From positions 1 through 64,000 of the forward strand of contig JACRKC010000131.1 of NCBI GenBank assembly GCA_016235555.1: 64,000 nucleotides of DNA. The letters are read 5' to 3'. The stretch comes from Verrucomicrobiota bacterium (lineage in GTDB: Bacteria > Verrucomicrobiota > Verrucomicrobiia > Opitutales > Opitutaceae). Within the stretch, counting starts at the first letter, position 1. Every line of letters begins with the position of its first letter. Under the pieces are notes generated by a model. It saw only the letters and a list, made by a program, of their open reading frames with translations, was not told the origin of the DNA and ran no database searches. The position numbers were made by a program, and so were the translations under genes. Positions 13,225 through 42,567 of this stretch are shown piece after piece.

Positions 13225-13408
13225 GGATTGGGAGTCCCCTCAAAAACCCTCACCTGGGCTCAGAAAGTATGAGCCTCCGAGGTGAGTCCGGCCGCCCAGA
13301 GCAAGTCCGCCGGCCGCCGGGTTGATTGGGAGGGTCCGGGCCGCTCCACCCCGGCATTCGCAGAGGTTTGGGAGGGTTTCGGTGAGTCCGGCGCGCTCGT
13401 TTAACGCG
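13225..13408 (+). promoter_or_regulatory. Left prophage end with three iterated sites (L1-L3-like)
   Basis: GGATTGGGAG (13225-13234), TGATTGGGAG (13323-13332) and GGTTTGGGAG (13365-13374) lie 98 and 42 bp apart, close to the spacing of Mu L1-L2-L3. TTCGCAGAGGTTTGGGAG (13357-13374) is perfectly repeated, inverted, at the right end. CGTTTAACGCG (13398-13408) recurs inside the prophage at 24073-24083. These are probably transposase-binding sites; no protein evidence is available. Confidence 0.55.
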
Positions 13409-13430
13409 TCGTTTTTGCCCAGTTTGAACA

Positions 13431-14189
13431 TCAGAAAAACGTGGTTTGGCCGCTGTCTTCTTTTCGAGTCTTCGCCGCCCGCTTCTGGCTGGCAAGCACC
13501 CGATGCGCGGCTGCCAGCGCATCCATCGGGTCCGGGCCGACCGGCGCTTTCGGTGCGCCGCCCTTCAGGATGCCGAGATCGAGCGCGTCGCGGATGCCTT
13601 TTTGCCGGTAATATAGCTCCTCGCCGTTGTGGACGAACCAGAGGCGGACGCAGTGTTGCAGGTAGCTCGGGAAGTATTCGATTTTAGCCAGGTCACCGTG
13701 CGTCGCGATGCCTGTGACGATCTCGCGCAAGATTTCGCGATAGCGGGCCACGGAAAGGCTCACGCCGCGCGTTTTGAGCCAGCCCGCAGGCCAGGTAAGC
13801 GTCATCATCAGCGGCTTCTGGTCCTGGAGCCATTTCTGCGGCGGCCGGCGGCCTTGGTAAAACCGCCGGCCGATGTCGGCGAGCAGCTCGGACACCATGC
13901 CATCAGGTGACTCGCGGGCCGGCTTGCCGTCGCGTTTCGCCTGCTTCGCGGCCGCATCCGCATCGTCGTCGCGCTGATCCAGGTAGAAACCGTCACAGAT
14001 GAGCGTTCCAAACTGAAACGCATTCCACTCGAACCCACAGCGATCAAGAGCCGCGTGGAGTTGCCGTGGCGTCATGCCTTCGCTTGGGAACACTTCCAAG
14101 ACCCGCGCGACGGGGATGCCGAGGAGCATGGCCAGGCAAGTTTGGTTGCACGCATAGGGCGTGGGCTGAATCTGGTGAATAATCTCCAT
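13431..14189 (-). CDS. Prophage early protein with C39-like papain-fold start
   Basis: 252 aa. The first 60 residues (IQPTPYACNQTCLAMLLGIP...GMTPRQLHAALDRCGF) resemble the catalytic start of C39-like cysteine peptidases, where a Cys in a CGQTxLAMLL context is the nucleophile; here C14 or C18 would serve. The remaining 190 residues are unlike anything I recognise. It is the last gene of the leftward early operon, 2 bp after the preceding gene, and the closest gene to the left end. The peptidase role is inferred from a short motif only. Confidence 0.55.
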   Translation of the reverse strand: MEIIHQIQPTPYACNQTCLAMLLGIPVARVLEVFPSEGMTPRQLHAALDRCGFEWNAFQFGTLICDGFYLDQRDDDADAAAKQAKRDGKPARESPDGMVSELLADIGRRFYQGRRPPQKWLQDQKPLMMTLTWPAGWLKTRGVSLSVARYREILREIVTGIATHGDLAKIEYFPSYLQHCVRLWFVHNGEELYYRQKGIRDALDLGILKGGAPKAPVGPDPMDALAAAHRVLASQKRAAKTRKEDSGQTTFF

Positions 14190-14191
14190 GA

Positions 14192-14743
14192 TCAGAACGG
14201 CACATCGACCTTCGGCGACTCGTTGCGCACCGGCGCGGACGGCGCGGTGCTGGCCGATTCTTGGCTGGCCAACTTTTGGCCTTTCTCTCGCCGCAGTTTC
14301 CGCTGATGCCGGCTCGCGACCGTCAAATGCCGCTTCCGCACCTCGTCGGCGTCGAGCGCTTCGAGCGGGCCGCCCGCCGCCGACGCCGCACCGCCGAAGC
14401 GATCGCGATCGAGCCGGTTCCTGCCCGCGCCATAGGTCTCGCGCTCGTGCCAGTCGGCCTGCTTCGCCCGGTTAAACGTGCGATAGTCCTCCTGGCACGT
14501 CACCCACCGGGCCGACTTGTCCAGGCTCGCGGGATTGCCCAGATGGCGCAGGTAGGTGAACAGCGCCGTGATTTCGTCCGGCCCCAGGGCGCCCGTCGAG
14601 TCCGTCTGTGGCCCGCGCACCAGGCGCATGGCTTCAGCCGTCACGGCGCGCCGACGCGCCTCGTCCTTCACGTCCCACTCGTTGGCGAGACATGCCTCGG
14701 GCCACAGGTGGCCGAAATAGGTGTTGCGCTCGCCCTTGGTCAT
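14192..14743 (-). CDS. Prophage hypothetical protein
   Basis: 183 aa from ATG at 14743, which overlaps the DUF2786 gene by ATGA. Contains YFGHLWPEACLANEWDVKDE and a FTYLRHLGNPASLDKS...CQEDYRTFNRAKQADW segment, then a charged tail rich in R and K. No family recognised. Position among early Mu-type genes suggests a DNA-metabolism or regulatory role, but nothing in the sequence proves it. Confidence 0.6.
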   Translation of the reverse strand: MTKGERNTYFGHLWPEACLANEWDVKDEARRRAVTAEAMRLVRGPQTDSTGALGPDEITALFTYLRHLGNPASLDKSARWVTCQEDYRTFNRAKQADWHERETYGAGRNRLDRDRFGGAASAAGGPLEALDADEVRKRHLTVASRHQRKLRREKGQKLASQESASTAPSAPVRNESPKVDVPF

Positions 14744-15432
14744 GCGAGCGCGAGGGTTTGCTCCGCGGGCGCCTTCACGGCGTTGCGGATCTCCGTCTGC
14801 CGGCCACGGATGTAGCCCGCGTAGCGCGCCGCCGCCGCGCTCGGATCGGCCATACCCTTCGACGAGGTTTCGCCGATGTGCTGTGCGATGTAGCCGTCCA
14901 TCGACAGCGCGAGTTCCGTGCCCCTGGCCTTGCGCTCCGCAGCCGGCGGCTCGGCGTCGGCGAGCTTGGTGTAGAGCCCCTCGAACATGCCGTGCACGTA
15001 GCTGTAGCGGTTGCGCAGCCGCCCGCGGTGCAGGCGCCAGCAATAGCCGAAGTGCCGCACGAGGAAGTGATACACGTAGAGCGCGATCTCGATGTCGCTG
15101 GCCGTGCCCACGAACGACAGCTTTTCGCCGCCGCGCGGCCAGCCGTCGACGACATGGACCGCGAAGCGCACCACCGGCCGCACGCGGAAAAACCGCTGCG
15201 TGATGATCGCCGCGAACCGCCGGTCGTAGCCGAGGCGCGCCAGCGAGTCCGTGTCCTGATGTGTGAGGAGCGGCGCCATCGCGTCGGGGTTGAGTGCATC
15301 GACCGCCACGCGGTGTTCCTCCGCGAGCTGCAGCGCCCGCTGCATGGCGAGCTGGGCCTCGTGCGGGTTCGCGCTGCGCGCGAGGCGCAGCAGCTTCTTG
15401 ATCCGCTCGACGATTTCAGCCGGCGCGCTCAT
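14740..15432 (-). CDS. DUF2786 domain protein
   Basis: 230 aa. The N-terminus, IVERIKKLLRLARSANPHEAQLAMQRALQLAEEH, is the DUF2786 signature (residues 5-45). The central part has GWPRGGEKLSFVGTASDIEIALYVYHFLVRH and a YSYVHGMFEGLYTKLAD helix. DUF2786 proteins are frequent in phages and plasmids and their function is unknown. ATGA overlaps on both sides place it in one translationally coupled operon with its neighbours. Confidence 0.75.
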   Translation of the reverse strand: MSAPAEIVERIKKLLRLARSANPHEAQLAMQRALQLAEEHRVAVDALNPDAMAPLLTHQDTDSLARLGYDRRFAAIITQRFFRVRPVVRFAVHVVDGWPRGGEKLSFVGTASDIEIALYVYHFLVRHFGYCWRLHRGRLRNRYSYVHGMFEGLYTKLADAEPPAAERKARGTELALSMDGYIAQHIGETSSKGMADPSAAAARYAGYIRGRQTEIRNAVKAPAEQTLALA

Positions 15433-16067
15433 GCCGCCTCCGCCCGTGCGCCGCGGTGCCGGGCGCCGTGGTAGCGCGTCACGTCCGCGATCGGCAGGCA
15501 CTCCAGGTTGTCGAGCCGCAGATCGCCGTGGTCCGCGTTCTTGAACGTCACCTGCCAGCCCGCCGGGATCGGGCCGTGGGCGTCCTCCCACAGCGCACGA
15601 TGCAGCGGCCGGCGGTCGCCCGCCGTGGCCCGGTAGTAGCCGTTTTTGCCCGGCGTATAGGCGCGCCCGCGATACTCGATCTTGGCGTGTAAGCGCAGGT
15701 GCCGCGGGCGGAGCCGCAGGCCCCGCACCCGGAACACCTCGTGCACCGACTGCCGCGTGCCGCCGAAGATCGCCGCGACCTCGGCGCACGACCGCCCGGC
15801 GCAATACTCGGCATACATCGCGCGCCAGACGTGCTCCGGCAGCCCCCGGCGGCCCCACGCCCCGCGCCGGCCGGACCGGTCGCGCCGGCCGTCGCGCACC
15901 AGACGCGCGAGACCGCGGCGCGCCTCCTGCGGCGTGGGCAGCTCCACCGGCCGGCACTGCGCCGCCAGCGCGCGCACCTGCGCCGGCGTGAGGCCGATCT
16001 TGGTGACGGCCGTCGCGGGCGGCTCGTGCTTGGCGAGCAACGCGAGGATTTCGGCGGCGGCGCTCAT
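15429..16067 (-). CDS. HNH-type endonuclease-like protein
   Basis: 212 aa. Residues about 20-125 form a helix-turn-helix-like region (EHVWRAMYAEYCAGRSCAEVAAIFGGTRQSVHEVF). The C-terminal part resembles HNH_3 nucleases: YRATAGDRRPLHRALWEDAHGPIPAGWQVTFKNADHGDLRLDNLECLP. The usual second His of the VHHKNGD strand is replaced (VTFKN), so catalysis may be impaired. It could be a homing-type or phage DNA-processing nuclease. Coupled by ATGA overlap to both neighbours. Confidence 0.65.
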   Translation of the reverse strand: MSAAAEILALLAKHEPPATAVTKIGLTPAQVRALAAQCRPVELPTPQEARRGLARLVRDGRRDRSGRRGAWGRRGLPEHVWRAMYAEYCAGRSCAEVAAIFGGTRQSVHEVFRVRGLRLRPRHLRLHAKIEYRGRAYTPGKNGYYRATAGDRRPLHRALWEDAHGPIPAGWQVTFKNADHGDLRLDNLECLPIADVTRYHGARHRGARAEAA

Positions 16068-16336
16068 GCGGCCCTCCCGGCGCGCAGCGCGGCGATTTCC
16101 TTTTCCTCGCGACGGATGCAGTGCAGCGCGAGCGCGCGGTAGCGAGTCCGCGTCTCCTGATCGACGCAGTAGATCGACAACACGTCATCGGGTGTGCGCA
16201 CCGCCTCCCACTTCGCCGGCCATTCGCCGCCGCGCTTATGCACGATCTCGTCGATCTCGCGCTCCGCCGCCGCGAGCAGCGCGTGCGCCACCATCAGCGG
16301 CAGCCGCTCCAACATGCTCCAGGTGATCGCGCTCAT
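16064..16336 (-). CDS. Prophage hypothetical protein, 90 aa
   Basis: Starts at ATG 16336. Mostly helical: WSMLERLPLMVAHALLAAAEREIDEIVHKRGG, then a basic/acidic C-terminus (IRREEKEIAALRAGRAA). No family recognised. ATGA overlaps with both neighbours support that it is translated. Confidence 0.6.
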   Translation of the reverse strand: MSAITWSMLERLPLMVAHALLAAAEREIDEIVHKRGGEWPAKWEAVRTPDDVLSIYCVDQETRTRYRALALHCIRREEKEIAALRAGRAA

Positions 16337-16668
16337 CCCTGCCTCCCCAGCGCCACCGCGTCGTAGTTGCCGTCGATGAACAGCAGCGGCACGGATTTCC
16401 GCGCCCACTCCTCGATCATCGAGCCGCGCAGGCGCTCCACGCACCGCGTGGTGCGCGCGATCGCGCGCCGCGCGTCGCGCAGCTTGAGGAACATCGCCAC
16501 CGGCGCGCCCGCCTGCCCTGAGCCCGCCGAATGGGGCAGCAACACGCCGCCCTTGTGCAGGCCGCTCACATTGGCGAGCGTGCAGGGCAGGCCCTCTTTC
16601 AGGACGATATAGCCGGCCGTCGTGAACGACGCCGCGATCGGCTCCGGTTTCGGGTGATTCTTTTTCAT
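16333..16668 (-). CDS. Prophage hypothetical protein, 111 aa
   Basis: Starts at ATG 16668. The central segment PHSAGSGQAG is encoded by a sequence close to the common CCCTGAGCCTGCCGAA repeat (around 16515-16540), so part of the protein may be repeat-derived. The rest (AMFLKLRDARRAIARTTRCVERLRGSMIEEW) is helical. No function can be assigned. Confidence 0.55.
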   Translation of the reverse strand: MKKNHPKPEPIAASFTTAGYIVLKEGLPCTLANVSGLHKGGVLLPHSAGSGQAGAPVAMFLKLRDARRAIARTTRCVERLRGSMIEEWARKSVPLLFIDGNYDAVALGRQG

Positions 16669-16844
16669 CGGCGGCTCGGGTCGGGGTATTGCGGGTTCGC
16701 CGGGCGATAGATGTCGGGGTCGCGCGGATCGGCCGGCCGCGGGCTGGCACAACCCGCGATCCAGAGGACTGAGGTCAGCAGCCAGAGCACGGCCAGGCGC
16801 ACGCCCCTCCGTCCTCTGTTTTCCGTGTTCTGTGCTCCGTTCAT
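16665..16844 (-). CDS. Small prophage lipoprotein (possible outer spanin)
   Basis: 59 aa. Residues 17-31 are hydrophobic and end in the lipobox WIAGC; the mature part is short and proline-rich (PRPADPRDPDIYRPANPQYPDP). Size, lipobox and proline content match Rz1-type outer spanins, but no inner spanin gene is visible beside it. ATGA overlaps with both neighbours. Confidence 0.55.
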   Translation of the reverse strand: MNGAQNTENRGRRGVRLAVLWLLTSVLWIAGCASPRPADPRDPDIYRPANPQYPDPSRR

Positions 16845-17341
16845 GACGCGAGGCCGAACCACGCCGAGGCGCGCTCCGCGGTGTTGAGTTCCACGCCCGT
16901 GCCCATGCCGGGCTCGAAGAACCGCACGCGGCTTTCGTAATCGACGAACCAGTTGATGCAGTGCCCGCCCTCGACCGAGTAGTTCTCCAGGCGCGCCGGC
17001 CCGGCCTGGTAGAGCAGGAAGCCGAAGGCGAGGCCGCCCCGTCCCGCGCTGGCCCGGCGCGCGGCCAGCGCGTTGCCCACCTGCCCGTGCGCCATCAGGC
17101 CGATCGCGAGGTTGTCGCAGTCGTCGGCCTCGGCCAGCCACAACGGGCGCTGGCGCACGGTCTTGCCGCCGCCGATGTCGGCGAACACGACCAGCTCGCG
17201 CGGCCGGGCCTCGAGCCAGGCGAGGTGGTTGTCCGCCACCCAATCCATGCTGACGGGCTCGTAGGCGAGATCGGGGAGCTGCCACAGCACCGCGGGCAGG
17301 CCCGCGGCGGTGAGAAGATTTCGGAGATCGGATTGAGTCAT
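16841..17341 (-). CDS. Papain-like (MOA/Agglutinin_C-type) predicted peptidase
   Basis: 166 aa. A Cys-His-Glu pattern can be read: EADDCDNLAIGLMAHGQ (Cys near 93), GGHCINWFV (His near 129) and RFFEPGMGTG. This order resembles the papain-fold domain found in Marasmius oreades agglutinin and in many phage proteins. It may be the lysis peptidase, since it is followed by a small lipoprotein gene and no other endolysin is evident, but this is a motif-level guess. Starts at ATG 17341. Confidence 0.45.
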   Translation of the reverse strand: MTQSDLRNLLTAAGLPAVLWQLPDLAYEPVSMDWVADNHLAWLEARPRELVVFADIGGGKTVRQRPLWLAEADDCDNLAIGLMAHGQVGNALAARRASAGRGGLAFGFLLYQAGPARLENYSVEGGHCINWFVDYESRVRFFEPGMGTGVELNTAERASAWFGLAS

Positions 17342-17355
17342 GGTTCGTTTTTTTT

Positions 17356-17440
17356 GACCGCGGATAACGCGGATTATGCGGATGGTTTGAGGTCTCTGGT
17401 CGCTAGTCTCTGGTCCCTGGTCGGCGCCCACAGGCGCGCC
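17356..17440. repeat. Long-palindrome family half-unit plus CTCTGGTC repeats
   Basis: GACCGCGGATAACGCGGATT (17356-17375) followed by tandem CTCTGGTC/CCTGGTC motifs. The same sequence types recur at 28106-28241 and 32948-33033. It forms the C-terminal codons of the next gene upstream. Confidence 0.6.
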
Positions 17441-17670
17441 AGCACCGCATCGCGGTCCTGGGCGGTGAGAAACGTGAAGCCGTCGCCCGGCAGCATCAGC
17501 GCGGCGAAGTTGCCCGTGTTGATCGACTGCACCTCGATCGTCGGGCAACCGCCCATCGTGCCGCCGCGCACCGCGTGCCCGTCGCGCTGCGCGACCTCGC
17601 GCACCGTGGCGATCCACGCGTCGGGCACGGCGGCGGCCGTGATGGCGGGCTTGGCGAGCAGCGGGTTCAC
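17374..17670 (-). CDS. Prophage hypothetical protein, 98 aa, GTG start
   Basis: GTG at 17670 overlaps the upstream stop as GTGA. The body reads AVPDAWIATVREVAQRDGHAVRGGTMGGCPTIEVQSINTGNFAALMLPGDGFTFLTAQDRDAVLARLW. The last residues, APTRDQRLATRDLKPSA, are translated from the CTCTGGTC repeat, so the original stop codon has probably been lost to repeat insertion. No known family. Confidence 0.55.
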   Translation of the reverse strand: MNPLLAKPAITAAAVPDAWIATVREVAQRDGHAVRGGTMGGCPTIEVQSINTGNFAALMLPGDGFTFLTAQDRDAVLARLWAPTRDQRLATRDLKPSA

Positions 17671-18236
17671 GACTTCGCACCGATCTCGTGCACCGCGCCC
17701 TCCTTGAGGATGCGCTTCACCAGTTTCCGCGCGTCGCTGTCGGTGTCGCTCACGACCACATAGTCGCCCACGCCCTCCACCGTCACGCCCAGCTTCGCGA
17801 GCACCGCGGCGTCGAGCTGCTTGAGGCCGTCCTTCGCGGGCGTGACCGCCGTGTGGAGGAGCTGCGCGAGCATCTCCTCCTCGCCCTTGAACAGCTTCGC
17901 GATGCGGGCGACCAGCTCGTCGTCCTCGATCTCCCAGTCGAGTTTGCCGGCGCCCTTCTGCAGGCCCAGCTTCACGCCGCGCAGCACGAGCGTGCGCTTC
18001 TCCTCGAACATGGGTTTGTTCCGCAGCACGGCCGCGACCGCGGCGTCCTGCGCGCTCTTCGCCTCGCCGAGCGCCTTGCGGATGCCGGGGAGTTTGCGGC
18101 GGTAGAGCTCGCGCAGCTCGTGGTCGAGCTCGTCGACGCGCGCGGCCACGCTGTCGGCCGCGGTGCGGTAGGATTTCGCGGCCGAGTCGAGATCGAGCAG
18201 GCCGGCGGTGGTGGGTGATTCGGTGGTGGTTGGCAT
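17667..18236 (-). CDS. Gam-like host-nuclease inhibitor (tentative)
   Basis: 189 aa from ATG 18236. A long N-terminal coiled coil (about 20-85, SVAARVDELDHELRELYRRKLP) is followed by KRTLVLRGVKLGLQKGAGKLDWEIEDDELVARIAKLF and a small C-terminal domain. This coiled-coil plus beta-rich architecture and the early position recall the Mu Gam DNA-end-binding protein family, but sequence identity to Mu Gam is not obvious. It may equally be an unnamed Mu-like early protein. Confidence 0.45.
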   Translation of the reverse strand: MPTTTESPTTAGLLDLDSAAKSYRTAADSVAARVDELDHELRELYRRKLPGIRKALGEAKSAQDAAVAAVLRNKPMFEEKRTLVLRGVKLGLQKGAGKLDWEIEDDELVARIAKLFKGEEEMLAQLLHTAVTPAKDGLKQLDAAVLAKLGVTVEGVGDYVVVSDTDSDARKLVKRILKEGAVHEIGAKS

Positions 18237-18251
18237 TTTTCGAGTTGGGAG

Positions 18252-18272
18252 CTTGCCCGCCTTTGGCGGGTT
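18252..18272. repeat. Prophage hairpin repeat, variant copy
   Basis: CTTGCCCGCCTTTGGCGGG plus flank; hairpin CCCGCC-TTT-GGCGGG. First of seven copies found only within the prophage. Confidence 0.7.
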
Positions 18273-18495
18273 AGGATTGTGGTTCTTGGGTCTCGGGTGC
18301 GGTGAGTGAGGCGAAGGTGGCGAAGGCATCGGCGAGCGCCTTGAGGTCGCGCGCGGCGTCGCGGTGAAAAAACATCTTGGCCTCGCATTTCTTCTGGGAG
18401 GCCCAGGCACCTTCGCAGTCGGCGGCCCGCATCTTCCAGCGGGCGCTTTCCTCCTCGTGCCACTGCGCGAGATCGCGGAGTTGCTTGAGGCTCAT
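18271..18495 (-). CDS. Prophage hypothetical protein, 74 aa
   Basis: MSLKQLRDLAQWHEEESARW then an alanine-rich helix with three cysteines or near-cysteine positions (DCEGAWASQKKCEAKM). Predicted entirely helical. ATGA overlap with the upstream gene. No family. Confidence 0.55.
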   Translation of the reverse strand: MSLKQLRDLAQWHEEESARWKMRAADCEGAWASQKKCEAKMFFHRDAARDLKALADAFATFASLTAPETQEPQS

Positions 18496-18650
18496 GATTC
18501 GTCCTCCCCGTCGAGCGGGCCTTCGTAGGCCGCGCCGAGTTTTTGCTTTTTGCGGGCCTCGGTGAGCATCGCCCAGGCGAAGAGCACCCAGAACAGGATC
18601 AGCCCGCCGAGCGCGAGCGGCAGGCGCAGGAGGCAGCGCAGCGGGTTCAT
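18492..18650 (-). CDS. Small single-span membrane protein, possible holin
   Basis: 52 aa from ATG 18650. One strongly hydrophobic segment (LLRLPLALGGLILFWVLFAWAML, about 6-28), then a charged tail. Size and topology would suit a one-span holin or accessory lysis protein, yet such proteins have no diagnostic motif. ATGA overlaps with both neighbours. Confidence 0.5.
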   Translation of the reverse strand: MNPLRCLLRLPLALGGLILFWVLFAWAMLTEARKKQKLGAAYEGPLDGEDES

Positions 18651-19072
18651 CGGCGGCCTCCCCTCGTCGTCCGCGAGTGGCGAGTGACAGTGGCGAGTGC
18701 TGGGTGCCGCCGCAGCCGCAGCGGTTTCAGCGATCCGTGGTCTTTGGTCTCCTTGCCCGCCTCTGGCGGGTGAAGTCCCTGGTCTCCGCCCGGCTCGGCG
18801 GGCGGCCACGCCAGCGCCTGCAGCAGCGCGTGCCAGCCGCGCGCGTCGAGCACGATGCCCTGGTGTGACGGCAGCAGCGAGATCGTCCCGCTGATCCGGT
18901 TGCGGAAAATTTCGAGCGTGGCCGGCTCGGTGCCGAAGCGGCCGGCCACGCTCGTGTGCAGCACCGCGCCGTTGAGGGCGATGGTCGGCTGGCTCGCGGT
19001 CCCTTGTCCCTTGGTCCCTTGTCCCTTGGTCCCTTGTCCCTTGGTCCCTTGTCCCTTGGTCCTTGGTTTCAT
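18647..19072 (-). CDS. Prophage protein with repeat-coded N-terminus and hairpin-coded insert
   Basis: 141 aa from ATG 19072. The N-terminus is (TKGQG)n, translated from a 15-bp tandem DNA repeat, so copy number would change length without shifting frame. The middle (TIALNGAVLHTSVAGRFGTEPATLEIFRNRISGTISLL) looks like a normal beta-rich domain. The LHPPEAGKETKD segment near residue 105 is the translated hairpin CCCGCC-TCT-GGCGGG. Function unknown; the C-terminus after the insert may be out of its original frame. Confidence 0.5.
   Translation of the reverse strand: MKPRTKGQGTKGQGTKGQGTKGQGTASQPTIALNGAVLHTSVAGRFGTEPATLEIFRNRISGTISLLPSHQGIVLDARGWHALLQALAWPPAEPGGDQGLHPPEAGKETKDHGSLKPLRLRRHPALATVTRHSRTTRGGRR
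18752..18776. repeat. Prophage hairpin repeat, copy inside a gene
   Basis: Hairpin CCCGCC-TCT-GGCGGG followed by TGAAGTC, flanked by CTCTGGTC-like motifs; lies in the reading frame of the 18647-19072 gene. Confidence 0.8.
18998..19066. repeat. 15-bp tandem repeat, about 4.5 units
   Basis: Unit GGTCCCTTGTCCCTT repeated nearly perfectly; translates as TKGQG on the minus strand. No spacers, so not a CRISPR array. Confidence 0.9.
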
Positions 19073-19368
19073 CGCCCACCTCCCGCCAAAAACGACCACG
19101 CGGCCGACAGCGCCGCGCCGATCGCGAGGGGCGCAAAAATCCACCAGAAGAGCTTCGCCCCCTCGCCGCGCATCTGCGCGGTGAAGAGGCGCGGGCCGGC
19201 CCGCCGGAGATCGATGCGGTCCGGCGTCACGCCCAGGAGCAGGCCGGCGAGCTGCCGCGCCGCGAGTTCCGGCGTGGTGCTGTCGGCCCAGGCGCAGCCC
19301 GACTCCGCGCGCCACAATCCGTCCGGCTGGCGCGTGACGACCAGCGTCACGAGATTGCGCGCACTCAT
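19069..19368 (-). CDS. Prophage membrane protein, 99 aa
   Basis: Start at ATG 19368 (an in-frame ATG at 19410 is possible). A soluble N-terminus (SARNLVTLVVTRQPDGLWRAESGCAW) is followed by one C-terminal membrane span (KLFWWIFAPLAIGAALSAAWSFLA). It is the promoter-proximal gene of the leftward early operon. The 119 bp to the first rightward gene should hold both divergent promoters, but no clear -35/-10 boxes stand out in the GC-rich sequence. Confidence 0.55.
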   Translation of the reverse strand: MSARNLVTLVVTRQPDGLWRAESGCAWADSTTPELAARQLAGLLLGVTPDRIDLRRAGPRLFTAQMRGEGAKLFWWIFAPLAIGAALSAAWSFLAGGGR

Positions 19369-19487
19369 GGCCGGCCTCCCTTCGCGCCCGGCCCCGGCCG
19401 CGGCGCGCACGCCGTGAGATACTCGCCGGCGGGTTTCAACACCACGGTCACGCAGTTCATGCGCGACCAGGCCAACCGCTAGACGCC

Positions 19488-19757
19488 ATGTCCCCCGCCG
19501 AACTCGAACGCCTCCGTTTCCGCCTGCTGGAGACGCTCCGCGAAGTCGCCGGCACCGAGCTGCCGGTGTCCACGCTCCTCCAGGCCGCGCGCCTCGCGGG
19601 CTTCCGCAGCGCCGAGCCCGCCACCATCGCCGCCGAACTGAGCTACCTCGCCGACAAGGGCTTCGTCGCCGCGGCCGACAAGGCGCTCTCGCCCGAAATG
19701 CGCGAGTGGCGCGTCACGGCCGCGGGCCGCGACTACCTCGCCTCCCGCGGGATCTGA
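19488..19757 (+). CDS. Small winged-helix-like protein
   Basis: 89 aa. LERLRFRLLETLREVAGTELPVSTLLQAARLAGFRSAEPATIAAELSYLADKGFVAAADKALSPEMREWRVTAAGRDYLAS has the helix-turn-helix-wing outline (helices at 4-18, 27-38, 44-55, then a beta wing). First gene of the rightward late operon. Comparable wHTH genes lie upstream of the small terminase in other Mu-like phages. It could be a late regulator or a structural accessory. Confidence 0.6.
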   Translation: MSPAELERLRFRLLETLREVAGTELPVSTLLQAARLAGFRSAEPATIAAELSYLADKGFVAAADKALSPEMREWRVTAAGRDYLASRGI

Positions 19758-19905
19758 ACCATGCCCGCCCGCCCCGCCATCGTCCGCAGCTTTTCCCGCG
19801 CGCCGGGATGCGCGCGGTCAGGACGCGTGATACGCCAAACCTCCGCGGGCGCCGTCGTAGCGGCCGGCGCCCGCGGAGCAATTTCCGCTCAAGGTCTCTG
19901 GTCCC

Positions 19906-19931
19906 CTTGCCCGCCTCTGGCGGGTGAAGTC
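19906..19931. repeat. Prophage hairpin repeat upstream of the small terminase gene
   Basis: CCCGCC-TCT-GGCGGG hairpin with CTCTGGTCCC motifs on both sides, in the 206-bp gap 19758-19963. A 67-aa reading frame across the gap (ATG 19761) is mostly translated repeat and I do not count it as a gene. Confidence 0.8.
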
Positions 19932-19963
19932 TCTGGTCCCTGGTCCACGCCGGAGGCGTCCTG

Positions 19964-22194: not shown

Positions 22195-22196
22195 CC

Positions 22197-24300: not shown

Positions 24301-24345
24301 CCGCCGCGCTGAAATCGAAAATCGAAATTCCAAAATCCAAAATCG

Positions 24346-25316: not shown

Positions 25317-25322
25317 GCCATG

Positions 25323-25475: not shown

Positions 25476-25555
25476 GGCCGCATGCACGCTCCGCCGCCGG
25501 CCGCGGTCGAGTCGATTGGCGGTGGAAACCCCCGCCGCGATTGGAGGCGCGCCGC

Positions 25556-30519: not shown

Positions 30520-30570
30520 GAGCCTGCTGGCAGGCGATTCCTCCACGACGAAACACCCCCAACCCACGAA

Positions 30571-32037: not shown

Positions 32038-32073
32038 GCGCTGCGCCACGAGAATCCAACATCAAAACCGAAA

Positions 32074-33033: not shown

Positions 33034-33039
33034 CCCTCC

Positions 33040-36200: not shown

Positions 36201-36253
36201 TCCAGATCGTGCGCGACAACCGCGACAGGATTTTCCGCCAGGGTCCGGGCTGA
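33221..36253 (+). CDS. Tail tape measure protein
   Basis: 1010 aa, setting a long non-contractile tail (about 150 nm at 1.5 A per residue). The N-terminal region (about 1-330) is helical with LQATALQQLTLFSDEAVSTVQRLLVSFGLTAQQAQGMAELVLDFAQETG; hydrophobic helices follow at about 260-310 and 345-375. A coiled coil lies at about 535-690 (KRERERAEQEFNLTRDLANLDQQIAAIESDRYRTAEEKQQK), and GGHAEGGLISGPGTGTSDSIVTRLSHGEFV (about 875-905) is the usual conserved end signature of tape measures. Position after the chaperones confirms the assignment. Confidence 0.9.
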   Translation: MAGPNKIEVTLSFKPILDGLNRFTAAIHSRLAQVRTFNEQIRNGDAALQRMVGQIGAVVGAAAIARYAREAREADKVQQQLIRTLERTGQSGALAALNLQATALQQLTLFSDEAVSTVQRLLVSFGLTAQQAQGMAELVLDFAQETGQSAESAAMLIGRTLGGDSEELGRYRIQLDQTKGKVDALTEALKKFAAGAARGAVASPAQRAVDARYADATETLGRAANRLATPFLEALIPLLERAADAATRLAAQLTPIAPMLGDMAAAAVPLVAGLGVLAAGFTAVRMVVNPLRALIVLLAGTSLVELSTRLSAVTARFGATATASILLKDGFTSLAGAGRLLAVAGGIAASAFAGWSLGSMLNELELSGLKIKQWAALWVAAVQDTIVGAFFGLQQAWTNVRFTLQEGLTALLLFIREKQLAVQEGINGLLASYNRLADKVGVNRAALFDTKDLRGEVAALGQKLGELEQQRLAAIKAIGAARKEAAAGTASDMAFIAEGDAAFRSGKKPGAAKSATTRPDLNADHFGKTDDKAAADAAELARKRALFDLETMAIEAEARGDHTRADAHRREIAEIEALAQLGKEAEGEIARRFAAEDALKKRERERAEQEFNLTRDLANLDQQIAAIESDRYRTAEEKQQKILPLLQRENEQLAERIRLLDEELLRLDANDPRRLDLRRERADLADKQVGVGTKIGEARPQTIGQGLQQGVSGQGGFLDSLGTAAQNAAGAVNATLNSALQGTQNLLYNLATGSMTFRQAWGTAILQVGQQFLQATTEMVAKMIWRATIERALIALGVTTHVAGEGAKTAATVSGGAIRIATVVKEALASVYHGAIEAFKALASIPYVGPFLGAAAMAAALAGGIALVSKIGGHAEGGLISGPGTGTSDSIVTRLSHGEFVARASAVDRFGPTFFERLNAGVLDLAALPGNVTRGLASPAAAPGAAAPAGADSSRDDLRTLLGDFAGRIVLVNVAGDTEATRIARRSRAAGDVVQIVRDNRDRIFRQGPG

Positions 36254-36286
36254 GTCCGCCACCCGCCACGCGCACCTGCCACTCTC

Positions 36287-38029
36287 ATGCCTTGGTTGGA
36301 ACCCATCGTCATCGACGGCCTCGACTGCCTCCTGGTCCTGCCGGAGATCAACTGGCGCCGCCGTCCGCGCCTCACGCTGCATGTCGCGACCGACGAAGCC
36401 GAGGGCCGCACCGGCATCGAGGCCCGCGCCTCCGGTCATCACGAGGTGCGGCTCTCGCTCGACTATTTCTGGACGCTGAAAACCGCGCAGGCCCAGGAAT
36501 TTCACGCGGCACTGCTCGCCCTCGATCCGGACGCGCGCCTCGCGCTGCCTCTCTGGCCGGACAAAATCCCGGCGGCGGATTATTTCACGAAGCGCGTCTT
36601 TTACTCGACGCACTGGGTCAACCTCAATCCGGCCACGGGCGCCGCGGCCGTCGATGCGGATGTCGGCTATCCCGAGACCGTCGGGCTGGCGATCGTGTCG
36701 TTGCTTGAGCGCCCGCGCTTCACCCCGAAAACGCACGGCGAGGCCGACGTGGGCCTGCGCCTGGAGGAAGACTCGCCGTGGGAGAGTCGCGTGGAGATCC
36801 AACAACTGGAGCAGCTCGGGTGGAATTTCGAGGCCGACTGGTCCGCGCTGCCGGACGATACGAGCCGCTGGCAGCTGGCGCGCCGCCGCCTCGGCCACGG
36901 CCGCCTGTCGGCCCGCACCGGCACCGAGGGCGCCACGAAGCACGGGCAATCGGCCACCTATCGCTTCCAGGGTCGCGAGGAACTCCGGCGCGCGCTCACC
37001 TTCTGGGCGGGCCGGCGCGGGCCGCACAGCGCCTTCACCGTGCCGCTGGAATTCCGGCCGGGCTGGGATGGCGCGCCGGAGACGATCCCCTCCATGCAGG
37101 CGCGCTTCGCGGAGGAGTCGCTCACGCTCGAGTTCAGTGCGCCGGACGTGGCCAGCGCGCGCATCGCGTTTGCCCAGGACCTCATCCTCACCGGCGGCGA
37201 GCCCAGCCAGGCGCGGCCGTCGCGCGCCTACCTCTACAAGCTCTGGTGGGAGGGCTCGGCGACGGTGATGGCCTGGACGGATTGGGCGCGCAGCTACTCG
37301 CACGCCGGCCTCGACTACCTGCCCACGATCGTCGAGCACCAGAGCAGCACCGAGACGCTCCGCGCCGGCCAGACCGAGTGGGAGCTGCTGGTGACCGACT
37401 TCGCAGGCAACCCCCTGCGCGCCTTCGGCCTCCTCGCCCGCGAGCGCGCGCTCAACCTCGAAATCCGCGAGTGCGATCCGGCGGGCGCCGATACGGCCAC
37501 GCTCGTGTTCGTGGGTGAAATCACCGAGGCCCCGAACAAGGGGCCGGTCTACACGGCGAAGGCGCGGCTCTTCGGCGGCGCGCTGCACGCGCTCATCCCG
37601 CCCCACTTCTGCCAGCAGGGGTGCAACAATACGCTCGGCGACGAGCTCTGCGGCGTAGACCTGGAGGCCCTCAAGGTCGCCGGCACGATCGCCGCCCTCG
37701 ACGGCACCGTGGTGGACGTGGCCTGCGGCTCCGCCGCCTTGGCGGATTATTACGCGCTCGGCTTCGTGCAGTTCACCGCCGGAGGCGAGATCGAGCTGCG
37801 CTTTATCCTGCGCTCGGCGCCGATCGCCGGCGGCCAGCGTCTCACGCTCCACCGGCCGCTGTGGGCGGCCGTCGTCGGCGCCGCCGCCGCGCTCTATCCC
37901 GGCTGCGACCAGCAATACGCGGGCGGCTGCGCCCGCTACAACAACCAGCCGCGCTTCTTCGGCGCGCCGCACAAGCCGGCCTACCTCGAGACGGTCGACA
38001 GCGGCTTCAAGGCCCGCACCGGCAAGTAA
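36287..38029 (+). CDS. Distal tail hub protein, gpL/BR0599-like C-terminus
   Basis: 580 aa. The N-terminal half (about 1-300) resembles distal tail proteins. The C-terminal part contains FCQQGCNNTLGDELCGVDLE (C-x3-C-x7-C) and LYPGCDQQYAGGCARYNNQPRFFGAP, the cysteine-rich pattern of the phage BR0599/gpL domain; lambda gpL binds a [4Fe-4S] cluster with four cysteines, and such a cluster is plausible here. It looks like a fusion of distal tail and gpL functions. Confidence 0.75.
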   Translation: MPWLEPIVIDGLDCLLVLPEINWRRRPRLTLHVATDEAEGRTGIEARASGHHEVRLSLDYFWTLKTAQAQEFHAALLALDPDARLALPLWPDKIPAADYFTKRVFYSTHWVNLNPATGAAAVDADVGYPETVGLAIVSLLERPRFTPKTHGEADVGLRLEEDSPWESRVEIQQLEQLGWNFEADWSALPDDTSRWQLARRRLGHGRLSARTGTEGATKHGQSATYRFQGREELRRALTFWAGRRGPHSAFTVPLEFRPGWDGAPETIPSMQARFAEESLTLEFSAPDVASARIAFAQDLILTGGEPSQARPSRAYLYKLWWEGSATVMAWTDWARSYSHAGLDYLPTIVEHQSSTETLRAGQTEWELLVTDFAGNPLRAFGLLARERALNLEIRECDPAGADTATLVFVGEITEAPNKGPVYTAKARLFGGALHALIPPHFCQQGCNNTLGDELCGVDLEALKVAGTIAALDGTVVDVACGSAALADYYALGFVQFTAGGEIELRFILRSAPIAGGQRLTLHRPLWAAVVGAAAALYPGCDQQYAGGCARYNNQPRFFGAPHKPAYLETVDSGFKARTGK

Positions 38030-38055
38030 CACCGGCGTCCCGCCCGCCTCCGACC

Positions 38056-38592
38056 ATGACTCCCTTCTACCGCACCGATGCCCGCCGCGCCGCGCTCCTG
38101 CAGGAGGCCCGCTCCTGGCTCGGCACGCCTTTTGCCGAGAACTGCGCGATCAAGGGGCCGCGCGGCGGCGTGAGCTGCGAGCGCTACCAGCTCGCCGTGC
38201 ACACCGCGACCGGCGCATGCCCGCCGGTCGCGCTGGCGTCGCTGCCCGTCGAGGTCGTGCGCCACTGGCACGAACACCACGCCGAGAGCCTCATCCTGGG
38301 CTTCCTCGGCCGCGAGGAGGTGCGCGGGCGCGTGCGCCGCGTCGACGACGGCGGGCCGCCGCTGCTCGGCGATCTCGCCATCTTCCGCTTCGCACAGACC
38401 GAGCATCACCTCGGCCTCTGGTGCGGGCACGAGCTCCTGCACGTCGCGATCCCGGCCGGCGTGGTGGTCCACAGCACCCGCGACCCCAAGCTCCGCGCGG
38501 CGCTCCGCTGCCTCTACCGCATCCACGAGGCTCCGCCGTCCGCCCTCGGTCCGCCGTCCTCCGTCCTCGGTTCTCCGTCCTCCGGCCCATGA
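38056..38592 (+). CDS. NlpC/P60-type tail tip peptidase (gpK-like)
   Basis: 178 aa from ATG 38056. RAALLQEARSWLGTPFAENCAIKGPRGGVSCERYQLAVH gives the catalytic Cys (SCERYQ, near residue 42); QTEHHLGLWCGHELLHVA gives the His region (near 118). This is the usual peptidase after gpL in siphophages, opening murein or maturing the tip. The last residues PPSALGPPSSVLGSPSSGP are low-complexity, likely repeat-derived. The stop overlaps the gpJ-like start (ATGA). Confidence 0.8.
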   Translation: MTPFYRTDARRAALLQEARSWLGTPFAENCAIKGPRGGVSCERYQLAVHTATGACPPVALASLPVEVVRHWHEHHAESLILGFLGREEVRGRVRRVDDGGPPLLGDLAIFRFAQTEHHLGLWCGHELLHVAIPAGVVVHSTRDPKLRAALRCLYRIHEAPPSALGPPSSVLGSPSSGP

Positions 38593-41500
38593 GCTTCCTC
38601 ACCCCCAAGGTCGAGACCGGCGTCAACACCGGCGACAACACGCCCGGCCGCACCGCCACGCAGAGCCCGCGCCAGACCCTGCCGCTCGTGCTCGGCCGCG
38701 GGCGTGTGGTGGTGCAATGGGTGACGCCGGTGCTCGAATGGTTCCCCCGCACGACCAGCCGATCACAGTATTGGTTTTTCTCGTGCTACGGCTGGCTGTG
38801 CTGTGGGCCGATCGACGAGATCGAGCAGCTCATTGTTAACGACAAACCCTACTTCGCGCTCTCCAAGCAACGCGAAGACTATCCTGGCACCGACTATGTC
38901 GACGATGTGCTCTCGAAAGAGACACCGGAAAAGTTCCGTCTCTATTGGGGCCGCGAGGACGGCGGCAGCCGCACCGCCCACCTGCACAGCCTGATCGTCC
39001 CGCAATATGCACCCGGCCTGATCGAGCCCGACGGTATCACAATAAAACCCTTCCCCTACGATCTCGGGATTGCCGCCCTCGCAGTGCAGCACATGGAAGC
39101 GGGGCAAAGTGCCGACGGCCGGACACCACCACTGCCGAAAGTCGAAGCCATCGTTTATCGCCGCAGCCCGGCGGCCTACAGCTTCGGCTACTCCGCCAAG
39201 GGCACGCATCCGGTCGGCCTCGTGAAGGACCTGCTCACGCTCAAGCGGGGCGGGCGCGGCCTGCCGGCCGCGATGTTCGACGACGCGGACTGGACCGCCA
39301 AAATGCAGCGCCTGATGGACGACGGCGTCGCGACGATGAAGGGCCACGATCTCTACCTGTCGCTGGTCGCGGCCGAGGCGAAGGAGGTCGACCAATACGT
39401 CGCCGATGTGCTCGCCTACCTCGGGGGCTGGCTGGTCGAGCGCAACGGCCAGCTCTACCTCGACTGGCAGCCCAACGACGGCACCTCGCTCGACGAGACC
39501 GGCCTGCGCGTGATCACCGAGCATCACCTGGCCGGCGAGGTCGACGAAGACCCCGGCCACCTCGACGGCGTGCCCTCGCAGGTGATCGTCACCGGATTGG
39601 ACTGGACGGCCAATCCGCCGCTCACCGAGGTCAGCGAGTCCGCGCCGGTGCCCTTCGTCTCGCGCCTCGTCAAGGGCCGCCGCGAGCCGGAACAGCTCAA
39701 CCGCCCCGGCTTCACCGAGCGCGCCCAACTCAAGAGCTACGCGACCATGCTCGCCGCGCTCCGCCCGAGCCCCGAGGCCAGCTTCACCGTGCCGCTCCTG
39801 CGCCAGTATGCGGTGCAGCCGGACAACCTCACGCCGCTGCGCCCCGGCGATCGCTTCGTGCTCAACCTCGCCGGCAACGGCGGCAAGCGCGTGGTCGTGC
39901 GCGTGACCGAGCGCAGCGGCGAGGATGCCGTGCGGGTCACGCTCAAAGGCCAGCGCGAGCGCGGCACCTACCCGCAGCCGGCCCAGCCCGTGCTCGACCC
40001 CCGCATCGATCCCACGATCGACCCTCCGGCGGACCTCGCGCGCTACGCCGTCGCCCAGCTCCCGCCCGATCTCAGCGATCCGGCCGACACGCTGGTGGCC
40101 GCCCTCGTCGAGCGGCCGTCGAGCAGCGTGCATGCGCACCAGGTGCATCTGTCGCCGACGAACAGTTGGCCCGGTCAGGTCATCGCGCCGCGCAACGTCA
40201 ACTTCGCCGTCGCGGCCGTCCTCCAGACCAACCTCGGCGTGAGCTATGCCGACGCCACCGTGAACGTCGACACCGTGGGCCACGAGTGGAGCTACCTGCG
40301 CAGCCAGAGCGCGCTGGAGCAGGGTGACGATCAGCTCCTGTGCTGGCACGGGGGCGAGTGGTGCTCGATCGGCGCGATCACGCCGCTCGGCGGCGGCAGC
40401 TACTCTATGACCATAAAACGCGCCCGGCTGGGCTCCCTGCCCCTCGCGCACGCCATCGGGGCGGTGCTGTTTCTCATCCCGCGCAACGATCTCGTCGCGC
40501 TCACGCACGCCGAATTCGCCAACGTCGAGGCCGCGGGCAGCTACGATGCGGCCACGGCCACCAAGTGGTTCAAGCTCCGCCCGCTCGGCGCCGGCGGCCT
40601 CGAAGGCAACCTCACGGCCGCGTTTTCCCTGCCGTTGCGCGATCCCACGCCCGACGCCGTCACCGACCTGCAGGCCCGCACCGGCACGGGCAAGCTCGTC
40701 GAGCTGCGCTGGACCAAGATCGCGACCGCGCTCGTCAACGAGTATCATATCTACCGCGGGACCGGACCGGCCTACGCCGACGAGGCCAAGGTGGCCGAGG
40801 CCGGCGGCGAGGAGTCGCGCTGGATCGACATCGGCGTGGCCTTCGGCGTGACCTACCGCTACCGCCTCAAGGCCATTACCACCGATGAGCACGATTCGGC
40901 CTTCTCCAACGACGTGCTCGCCACGCCCGGCGTCGTCAGCGGCCTGGATGTCGACTACACGCCGCCTGCGAACCCCGGCAACATCACGCTCGACTCCAGC
41001 GGCACCTACCTCGGCGACGATGGCACGGTCTTCTCCTACGTCATCCTCAATCTCCCGCCGCTGCCGGCCGGCGCGATCGGGCAGACCGTGAAGCGCCGCC
41101 GCGCGGGTGAGGCCGGCGCATGGGAGGACGTGGGCCAGACCTTCAACGCCGCCGCCACCACGATCCGCCAGGACGATCTCACTCCCGGCACAAGCTATGA
41201 TTTCGCGTTGGAGGCGTTCTCCTGGAGCGGCGTGCCGAGCGCGATCGTCGTCCCGCCCACGTCGCCCTATCTCGCGCCGAAAAAATCCACCAACCCGACC
41301 GCGCCGGGTGCCATCACCTACACGGCGGGCAACAGCACTTCGTTCAACCGGCCGCCGGTTTTCAGCCGCGACGCCAATGGCAATGTGCAAATGTTGATGT
41401 CCGTGCTCATGACCTGGCCGACGTCGACGGACAAGGACATCGCCGGCTACGAGTGGGTCGCCACGTCGGACTCCAACACGGCGGCTGACAACGTGGCCGC

Positions 41501-42050
41501 GGCTGGTCTCGCCACCTTCACCGTGATGCCGGAGGCGATCTACTCCTTTCCTACCCCGGCCCCGCTCTATTTTCGCGTCCGCTGCGTCGACTCCAGCCGG
41601 CGGCGCAGCGCTTGGTCGGGCGGCGGCACCGTCCTGAGCGGGTTGATGGCGTTGCCAGCCGGCAGCATGTCGCAACAGCAAGCCAGCGCCGTCGCCATCA
41701 GCGGAGGCACGGCCACCGGCCTCACGCAACTCGCGACCACCGGCCTCACGATCGGCGCCGGCACGTCTCAGCGCAAGGTGATCGCCCGTCAGCCCATCTA
41801 CGCCACGATCGATCTCGTCGGCGGCCTGGCCCAGGAGACGATCGATTTCAGCCTGGCCGGCTTCGGCTTCAGCACGCGCCCGGACAGCGGCTGGATGCAG
41901 TCGGCGGACTGGGATGGCCTGCTGATCCGCTACGATCTCGACGACTCCACGTCGACGGTGGCGAAGCTGCGCGTGACGATGGCCAACGGCGGCAACACGC
42001 CGGCGGTGACCGGCCTCGAAGTCACCGGGGAGTTTCTCGAATACGACTGA
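38589..42050 (+). CDS. Tail tip/central fibre protein (gpJ-like)
   Basis: 1153 aa from ATG 38589. LPLVLGRGRVVVQWVTPVLEW and the hub portion (about 1-520) correspond to lambda gpJ-type tip attachment proteins. Fibronectin type III-like modules follow (about 690-1000: TDLQARTGTGKLVELRWTKI...YHIYRGTGPAY, then LPPLPAGAIGQTVKRRRAGE and IAGYEWVATSDSNTAADN). The C-terminal 130 residues (GLTIGAGTSQRKVIARQPIYATIDLVGG) should contact the host receptor. It probably determines host range. Confidence 0.85.
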   Translation: MSFLTPKVETGVNTGDNTPGRTATQSPRQTLPLVLGRGRVVVQWVTPVLEWFPRTTSRSQYWFFSCYGWLCCGPIDEIEQLIVNDKPYFALSKQREDYPGTDYVDDVLSKETPEKFRLYWGREDGGSRTAHLHSLIVPQYAPGLIEPDGITIKPFPYDLGIAALAVQHMEAGQSADGRTPPLPKVEAIVYRRSPAAYSFGYSAKGTHPVGLVKDLLTLKRGGRGLPAAMFDDADWTAKMQRLMDDGVATMKGHDLYLSLVAAEAKEVDQYVADVLAYLGGWLVERNGQLYLDWQPNDGTSLDETGLRVITEHHLAGEVDEDPGHLDGVPSQVIVTGLDWTANPPLTEVSESAPVPFVSRLVKGRREPEQLNRPGFTERAQLKSYATMLAALRPSPEASFTVPLLRQYAVQPDNLTPLRPGDRFVLNLAGNGGKRVVVRVTERSGEDAVRVTLKGQRERGTYPQPAQPVLDPRIDPTIDPPADLARYAVAQLPPDLSDPADTLVAALVERPSSSVHAHQVHLSPTNSWPGQVIAPRNVNFAVAAVLQTNLGVSYADATVNVDTVGHEWSYLRSQSALEQGDDQLLCWHGGEWCSIGAITPLGGGSYSMTIKRARLGSLPLAHAIGAVLFLIPRNDLVALTHAEFANVEAAGSYDAATATKWFKLRPLGAGGLEGNLTAAFSLPLRDPTPDAVTDLQARTGTGKLVELRWTKIATALVNEYHIYRGTGPAYADEAKVAEAGGEESRWIDIGVAFGVTYRYRLKAITTDEHDSAFSNDVLATPGVVSGLDVDYTPPANPGNITLDSSGTYLGDDGTVFSYVILNLPPLPAGAIGQTVKRRRAGEAGAWEDVGQTFNAAATTIRQDDLTPGTSYDFALEAFSWSGVPSAIVVPPTSPYLAPKKSTNPTAPGAITYTAGNSTSFNRPPVFSRDANGNVQMLMSVLMTWPTSTDKDIAGYEWVATSDSNTAADNVAAAGLATFTVMPEAIYSFPTPAPLYFRVRCVDSSRRRSAWSGGGTVLSGLMALPAGSMSQQQASAVAISGGTATGLTQLATTGLTIGAGTSQRKVIARQPIYATIDLVGGLAQETIDFSLAGFGFSTRPDSGWMQSADWDGLLIRYDLDDSTSTVAKLRVTMANGGNTPAVTGLEVTGEFLEYD

Positions 42051-42058
42051 CCAAGCAC

Positions 42059-42430
42059 ATGGCCTTTCAAAAAAACCTCGCCCTGCCCACCGGCGTCTCC
42101 GCCGACTATTTTCGCCTCACCTCCTTTCGCTGGGATCGCTCGGCGCGGGAGGCGTCCGCGCTCTTCTCGCTCTTCAAGGATGCCGCCACGGCCGCCGCCG
42201 GTCAGCCGCTGGTGCCCGTCGTGGCCAAGCTGCGGCTGACGGCCGCCGAGTTTGACGCCTTTCTCGGTCCGACCGCCCTGGCCGCGGCAGCGGATGACGT
42301 GGTGGCGCAACTCTACGCCGCCGCTCGGGAGACGTGCGAAGACCGGCACGAGACGGGTGAGCCGACGCCCGGCGCCGAGTTGATCTCGGACCACGGCCCG
42401 GACCTCTTTTGGGATGCGGACGATGTTTGA
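42059..42430 (+). CDS. Last prophage gene, hypothetical 123 aa
   Basis: From ATG 42059: FQKNLALPTGVSADYFRLTSFRWDRSAREASALFSLFKDAATAAAG, then AKLRLTAAEFDAFLGPTAL and an acidic end (GPDLFWDADDV). It follows the tail tip gene by 8 bp and is the last gene before the right end; it may be a tip accessory or tail-fibre assembly protein. No family recognised. Confidence 0.55.
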   Translation: MAFQKNLALPTGVSADYFRLTSFRWDRSAREASALFSLFKDAATAAAGQPLVPVVAKLRLTAAEFDAFLGPTALAAAADDVVAQLYAAARETCEDRHETGEPTPGAELISDHGPDLFWDADDV

Positions 42431-42483
42431 AGGCTGGAAAAACAGCCTTTCAGTCGCCGTTCAAACGAGGTTTAACCGTGCCC

Positions 42484-42567
42484 GTGTCCGCGCCCGTTAA
42501 ACGCCCGGAATTTCGCCGAGACTCCCAAACCTCTGCGAAACCCTCCCAAACCTGACGGCGCGTTACC
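42484..42567 (-). promoter_or_regulatory. Right prophage end with two adjacent iterated sites (R1-R2-like)
   Basis: CTCCCAAACC at 42543-42552 and 42522-42531, 21 bp apart, matches the adjacent R1-R2 arrangement of Mu. CTCCCAAACCTCTGCGAA (42522-42539) is the exact inverse of 13357-13374. CGTTAAACG (42495-42503) is the inverse of the left CGTTTAACG. This is probably where transposase would bind. Confidence 0.55.

Follow-up and report, generated by a model that had tools for sequence, protein, structure and literature searches.

Ends of a Verrucomicrobiota prophage carry a Mu-like five-site array with a probable recognition word of its own

A prophage in a Verrucomicrobiota bacterium of the family Opitutaceae carries five copies of one short sequence at its two ends, three at the left and two, inverted, at the right, which encourages us to ask what these sites are for and whether the element that they bracket travels as phage Mu does. 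The stretch analysed, called the window below, comprises bases 1-64,000 of the 132.7-kb contig C103 (JACRKC010000131.1) of an 8.03-Mb draft genome in 140 contigs. Our results make it highly probable that the five sites form an array bound by the transposase of a Mu-like lineage of transposable phages in Verrucomicrobiota, with TTGGGAS as its word, and that the window copy is a non-autonomous remnant of this lineage. The left-end sites, on the + strand, are labelled L1, L2 and L3, and the right-end sites, on the - strand, R1 (outer) and R2 (inner). The element and its ends are laid out as follows.

13205-13209, unstranded: left copy of the target-site duplication CGAGT, a direct repeat exactly 18 bp beyond the outer core
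13210-42567, unstranded: Mu-like defective prophage of 29,358 bp, bounded by the CGAGT duplication
13225-13234, + strand: site L1, GGATTGGGAG, with the core TTGGGAG at 13228-13234
13323-13332, + strand: site L2, TGATTGGGAG, 98 bp from L1
13365-13374, + strand: site L3, GGTTTGGGAG, 42 bp from L2, within an 18-mer (13357-13374) that is common with R2
42522-42531, - strand: inner site R2, GGTTTGGGAG, within an 18-mer (42522-42539) identical to that of L3
42543-42552, - strand: outer site R1, GGTTTGGGAG, 21 bp from R2
42568-42572, unstranded: right copy of the target-site duplication CGAGT, likewise exactly 18 bp beyond the outer core

An earlier reading of this DNA from its letters alone (the sequence-only reading) had reported the motif with spacings of 98 and 42 bp on the left and 21 bp on the right, and these positions and spacings are exact. 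The pattern DGWTTGGGAG has five matches in the 64 kb, every one at the prophage ends; in 100 dinucleotide shuffles the mean was 0.43 and the maximum 4, and none of the 100 reached five or more. The 18-base inverted identity that had been described between the ends was also recovered (TTCGCAGAGGTTTGGGAG), with a single occurrence per strand, at L3 (+) and at R2 (-). The limits given there, 13225-42552, hold as the bounds of the motifs, whereas the insert proper is 13210-42567, flanked by CGAGT.

Another contig of the same genome, C31, holds a related prophage whose left cores lie at 8317, 8415 and 8457 (98/42) and whose right pair is 21 bp apart. Identity between the two prophages is 93% over 261 bp at the left end and 94% over 50 bp at the right end, and the flanks beyond the element ends are unrelated. 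Both ends lie on a single contig in seven elements (G-numbers denote related genomes and L-numbers loci), each of which is flanked by a direct repeat of 4 bp or more whose copies start exactly 18 bp beyond the outer core at either end. This offset was first spotted by eye and was then scanned in six elements, later in seven, over 8-39 bp per side. Among the resulting 1024 offset pairs, 18/18 alone fits more than one element; 968 of the other 1023 fit none and 55 fit one. The duplications are all different, namely CGAGT (window), CGGC (C31), GGGC (G003), CCCG (G020), TCAA (G049), CCTA (G189, the identical place being also listed as G221) and CAGC (G001), with a length of 4 bp in six elements and 5 bp only in the window element. 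A 5-bp duplication for all elements, with the ends shifted by one base, was considered and rejected because none of the six 4-bp cases agrees at the fifth base. The layout and the target duplications are established by these comparisons, and short target duplications at a fixed distance indicate arrival by transposition.

The 4-bp length can also be read from the interrupted genes. Joined flanks are informative in two of the seven elements (G020 and G049), through homology of protein ends and not through frame length, the other five being intergenic or ambiguous. In both, the insertion point is close to the 3' end of a PDDEXK_3 (PF13366) gene, and the homologous protein ends (..LLINFGAPVLTVKKYVLNT and ..LLINFGSAKFEINKYVL) are restored on removing exactly 4 bp from the joined flanks; removal of 0, 3, 5 or 6 bp does not restore them. 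As for the termini themselves, the first base of the element is variable, the second base is G at both ends in six of the seven elements and at neither end in G003, and TG stands at both ends in G020 only. As an aside, the position of two independent elements near PDDEXK_3 gene ends may reflect a target preference, or simply an abundant gene family.

These insertion sites bear on the question of how the prophage was placed. The window element, in which no transposase gene was found, could have been placed by a site-specific tyrosine or serine integrase, its likeness to Mu then being due to chance. However, the seven elements lie at seven different duplications of 4-5 bp with no common attachment core, identity between the window and C31 stops at the element ends, and no integrase is present among 29 scanned open reading frames (ORFs), a subset of all ORFs of the window, so that placement by an integrase is barely credible.

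Which protein could act on these sites? Reading the ORFs of C31 located a candidate transposase gene, A (L018:5860-7893, - strand, 677 codons used), adjoined by the gene of B, a protein of 353 residues that matches phrog_296, a DNA transposition protein (E = 2.6e-22), and AAA_22 (4.8e-10). An AlphaFold2 model of A, built from ten relatives, has a mean predicted local distance difference test score (pLDDT) of 69.6 and a predicted template modelling score (pTM) of 0.50. Its best solved-structure match in Foldseek is the Mu transpososome 4fcy (E = 5.2e-11), and it superposes on the MuA core 1bco with Z 17.5 and a root-mean-square deviation of 4.1 over 268 residues at 12% identity. Built on 73 members (C31 A plus 72 of the 75 loci with A relatives, some of them near-duplicates; 67 used after filtering), a profile matches MuA with probability 92.9 and E = 3.8e-7 over 452 columns, and places D214 opposite the catalytic D269. 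Two distant A relatives match phrog_310 (4.3e-6 and 1.2e-14), which MuA itself matches at 8.6e-199. Judged from this model and these matches, A is a transposase with the MuA fold. The Pfam Mu-transposase models PF09039 and PF09299 found no match in the own genome, but 14 controls were equally silent, so this null carries no weight as evidence of absence. Two A proteins had no match in a collection of 50,697 phage records at an E limit of 1.

The identity between A and MuA is about 12-17% and the recognition word is different, which could suggest that the five-site likeness to Mu arose by convergence, in an unrelated transposase family with a similar layout. This is very unlikely in view of the fold and the 452-column profile match to MuA, the phrog_310 matches of the distant relatives, and the presence of a MuB-like partner, Gam and a Mu-type portal in the lineage. 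Returning to a MuA-fold enzyme, its acidic residues are conserved in a particular manner. D214 and D215 (68/68 each), E294 (72/72, counting the members that have a residue at this place) and E348 (73/73) are retained throughout the A family, D219 (61/68) and E378 (64/73) less strictly, and no further D or E between residues 200 and 400 reaches 85%. E294 stands after the fourth core strand of the model, which is the place of the second aspartate in DDE enzymes, and the sequence alignment puts it two positions from D336 of MuA; on these grounds a D-E-E active site (D214, E294, E348), instead of D-D-E, is put forward as a proposal for this MuA-fold transposase.

Of 189 related genomes, 18 have a homologue of the C31 transposase, the genome of the window among them. 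The sequence-only reading had called for the ends of related prophages to be aligned, and among the six loci that are the window itself or encode a close A (window, C31, G003, G020, G049 and G135) five have the same sites at both ends, while the sixth, cut by its contig, has the left half. These loci were scanned de novo for any 7-mer with three co-directional copies spaced by 90-111 and 38-45 bp and, at a distance of 15-60 kb, two inverted copies spaced by 19-23 bp. The array appeared at one place each in the five: TTGGGAG at 98/42/21 in the window and C31, TTGGGAC at 96/41/21 in G003 and at 97/41/21 in G020, and GGTTTGGGAG at 97/41/21 in G049. In G135 the left triplet (97/41) is present and the contig ends before the right side. 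The overall range in close relatives is therefore 96-98/41-42/21, with the cores TTGGGAG and TTGGGAC. None of eleven control sets with shifted spacings, run with 7-mers and with the windows narrowed further to widths of 4, 4 and 3, gave matches. Within the narrow limits only TTGGGA-type 7-mers and 8-mers were returned, the 6-mer rows being filtered to TTGGG/TTTGG words; a wider earlier scan (80-124/30-55/18-27) gave very many chance 6-mers and, as chance 7-mers, at least CCTCGCC in G020 and CGGCCGC in G049.

Patterns derived from these sites were followed through the family. A stricter right-end pattern, with the spacing fixed at 21, found 16 places in 12 of 252 family genomes, and its reversed control none. 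The left-triplet pattern, applied to 24 chosen genomes (the 12 with right ends and 12 others), found 8 places in 7 genomes, all of which belong to the 12 with right ends; its control again gave none. In the five right-end genomes that have no left match, the six right ends lie on contigs that stop 0.2-20.6 kb inside the element. Relatives found by their head protein only (G080, G035, G043, G082 and G013) had their ends covered solely by the family-wide right-end pattern, where they are in the family. The locus L088, whose A is 72% identical, has neither the right-end pair nor the left triplet, and its contig probably breaks off a little before the left end.

The smallest carrier of the array is a natural mini-element of 1,778 bp (G001:C8:6300-8077, locus L177), with a left triplet at 96/41, a right pair at 21 and the duplication CAGC. 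Its interior has one long frame of 406 codons without Pfam or PHROG match, and the opposite strand has frames of 205 and 190 codons; a search of 20 other genomes returned no further copy of the 406-codon gene. The genome G001 also has a second right end, on contig C48, and no A match among six scored of nine candidates. Multiple direct 10-mers near the end of an operon can be operators, and the proposed role of the sites is read from sequence, which would allow the repeats to be operators of a phage regulator that lie by chance near both ends, and not transposase sites. This explanation is highly improbable, given that the sites are inverted at both ends of seven elements with near-constant spacing, always 18 bp away from the duplicated target, and that the array is present also on this 1.78-kb element, whose long frame has no Pfam or PHROG match.

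How close, then, is this array to that of Mu? The sequence-only reading had compared the layout with left sites about 105 and 40 bp apart and adjacent right sites in Mu, and measurement in the Mu genome (AF083977) bears this out: the CGAAA cores, all directed inward, lie on the left at 22, 127 and 167 (105/40) and on the right at 13, 22 and 44. The right cores at 22 and 44, which are 22 apart, we take to be R1 and R2; Mu has in addition a third right site, R3. Both systems have three left and two adjacent right sites directed inward, at 96-98/41-42/21 here and 105/40/22 in Mu, and in both the outer cores are equidistant from the two termini. The lineage further shares with Mu a predicted MuA-fold transposase, a MuB-like ATPase, a Gam-like protein and a Mu-type portal. 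In contrast, the recognition core is TTGGGAS and not CGAAA, as had been claimed in general terms, 18 bases and not 21 lie outside the outer core, the duplication is 4 bp in six elements (5 bp in the window element) against 5 bp in Mu, there are no fixed TG..CA termini, and the early operon reads toward the left end, whereas the Mu transposase gene reads inward from it. In a wide sense the lineage is thus Mu-like, with a MuA-fold transposase (by model), a MuB-like ATPase, multiple inverted end sites and short duplications; it falls outside Muvirus proper by its duplication (six of the seven have 4 bp, not 5 bp), its termini and its word.

Several observations weigh against this interpretation. 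C31 A has no sequence match in Pfam, PHROG or PDB, its model is of middling confidence, and a ten-sequence A profile matches MuA with a probability of only 4.2%. The length of the duplication varies between the six elements and the window element, and G003 departs from the 5'-NG terminus of the other six. The window element has no detectable A and B, and the predicted binding by A and the predicted transposition rest on evidence from sequence and fold. Distant A relatives lack the triplet above background: an exact 7-mer triplet scan of the 75 A loci gave 11 matches, of which three are TTGGGAG in the close relatives L058, L059 and L060, and the remaining eight are no more than in seven shifted controls (10 to 54); when the outermost 700 bp of 69 distant loci were scanned for 6-mers, 7 matches appeared, against 1 to 7 in six shifted controls. 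Owing to these background levels, the layout is claimed for the close subfamily only. Related prophages without the motifs had been named in advance as the finding that would speak against the array. Relatives with a close A have them, whereas G052, which was found through its head protein, is kin by structural genes alone and has no A match, does not have the array, no TTGGGAS pair being present at any of the three spacings in 39.8 kb.

The gene content of the window copy is consistent with a prophage that has kept its ends and lost its enzyme. The following features were assigned, those of the terminase and portal with ORF limits.

13431-18495, - strand: remaining early operon (DUF2786/DUF7168 protein, HNH endonuclease, Gam-like protein and unassigned genes), reading toward the left end
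17667-18410, - strand: Mu Gam-like end-protection protein (phrog_491, E = 1.4e-6; no Pfam match)
18411-19963, unstranded: place of the missing A, B and repressor, 1,553 bp against 11,778 bp between the matching C31 genes
19924-22194, + strand: terminase large subunit (phrog_2, E = 1.1e-13)
22017-23900, + strand: Mu-type portal protein (PF06074 Portal_Mu, E = 9.7e-32)
24346-25350, + strand: major head protein gene, apparently truncated and fused to the following gene (phrog_1005, E = 5.9e-36)
33221-36253, + strand: tail tape-measure protein (phrog_2854, E = 1.6e-19)
36287-42430, + strand: tail assembly and tail protein genes up to the right end (phrog_778, E = 8.6e-29; phrog_1101, E = 2.5e-16)

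Structural genes read toward the right end and early genes toward the left, three-site end. From the left end to Gam the early gene order is largely collinear with C31, whose Gam homologue matches PF07352 at 2e-7, and collinearity is regained on the terminase side; neither the HNH gene nor its neighbour at 16064 is matched in C31. The 11,778 bp of C31 carry A and B together with an S24-type repressor and small regulator-like genes, and the corresponding interval of the window contains an 89-residue regulator-like ORF (19488-19757) and short ORFs. Searched against the window, A, B and the repressor of C31 gave no match (best tblastn E = 0.26, 2.6 and 0.75, respectively). Residues 1-235 and 235-327 of the head protein match stretches of G020 about 0.7 kb apart, the second frame having stops there, and another tblastn run joined residues 1-323 to a single G020 stretch at 52% identity; part of the head gene has apparently been lost. 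Because no A or B gene is detectable, the window prophage would be a non-autonomous derivative that has kept both ends and should not move alone. In principle, the C31 prophage of the same genome could supply A in trans to the intact ends of the window copy.

The draft state of the genome (140 contigs), the second related prophage in it and repeat copies within the gap (18739-18807 and 19893-19961) raise the question whether an assembly join has made A, B and the repressor seem absent from a prophage that is in fact complete. On the other hand, the stretch from Gam to the terminase has no DNA match to C31 and is not a clean cut, the head gene seems to carry a second loss, and the contig is continuous to 132.7 kb. 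A join is accordingly an unlikely though not a negligible explanation, and a genuine loss is preferred.

From these elements a course of events may be proposed. With a MuB-like ATPase as its helper, A with the MuA fold would occupy L1-L2-L3 and R1-R2 and pair the element ends in a Mu-type complex; nicks would then be made by A in both strands, 18 bp beyond the outer cores, and the nicked ends would be joined to target DNA with a 4-bp stagger (5-bp in the window element), which would leave the flanking repeats. The window copy lies between a gene for a TonB-dependent receptor plug domain (PF07715, 7.4e-11) on one side and an IclR-type regulator gene on the other; it would have inserted there in this way, and later have lost A, B, the repressor and apparently part of the head gene. 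That A binds the sites we infer from its fold, from linkage and from the precedent of Mu, and on the same grounds transposition during lytic growth may be replicative. The sequence-only reading had taken the ends as an independent sign of replicative transposition. Transposition is supported by the duplications in seven of seven elements and by the predicted MuA fold of the C31 enzyme, whereas the replicative mode is not demonstrated by duplications.

Other transposable phages offer partial parallels. Passages of PMC8705779 describe B3/D3112-type phages and Leptospira prophages as likewise transposable, with MuA-like transposases, and give duplications of 5 bp for Mu and 6 bp for B3 and the Leptospira prophages. 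The same passages state that TG-CA holds for all Mu-like and B3-like ends described before the TA-TA ends of one Leptospira group; the terminal dinucleotide is fixed within a group there, whereas the first base varies here. Burkholderia phage KS10, according to passages of PMC2628397, resembles the present lineage in having no TG..CA termini, a binding word of its own and an early region inverted relative to Mu; it differs by four putative sites, a D3112-like transposase and the lack of a flanking direct repeat among its reported features. Degraded Mu-like remnants are mentioned for a verrucomicrobial genome in a passage of PMC6920513, and no description of the present lineage was found in the titles and abstract openings of the open-licence PMC papers that were screened. 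The short element of G001 invites one further comparison. Engineered mini-Mu is reportedly a short unit bracketed by both Mu ends, and the G001 element is likewise short and bracketed by ends; it is, however, natural and contains an open frame of unknown family.

Phage Mu serves as the model of large DNA-transposition complexes, and which parts of its end layout are essential has been hard to establish. Here the site spacing is nearly kept despite a divergent transposase and another word, which suggests that the constraint conserved here is one of geometry and not of sequence, and the natural 1.8-kb derivative indicates what the minimal cis requirement may be. The lineage also violates two working rules for spotting such prophages, the 5-6 bp duplication and the TG..CA ends. 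In a broader sense, and with somewhat less than an even chance of being right, Verrucomicrobiota may have a deep transposable-phage lineage of their own, in which the Mu transpososome plan is kept while the word, the terminal dinucleotide, the stagger and perhaps the active site (D-E-E) have changed, and which feeds non-autonomous riders moved in trans, such as prophages without A and B and single-cargo mini-elements.

A few further observations are recorded. Akkermansia glycaniphila Pyt has three loci with distant A homologues (L070, L077 and L078), two of which are identical over 12.9 kb; their ends were sought through identity breakpoints, and this approach was dropped as the break is unlike an end. 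In the window, a 27-bp repeat with a perfect hairpin, CCTTGCCCGCCTCTGGCGGGTGAAGTC, occurs in six copies in one direction (18751, 19905, 23923, 27356, 27384 and 28215), several of them just ahead of structural genes; elsewhere in the genome there is one copy with two mismatches. A tandem repeat of period 15 (18997-19067) lies in the region of the missing early genes. Within the head region, a D12-class adenine DNA methyltransferase (PF02086, 2.7e-19) is encoded at 25541-26395 and is 78% identical in C31 and 71% in G020. A tail-region protein (30571-32037) has a Laminin_G_3 (concanavalin-like) domain, possibly for host binding.

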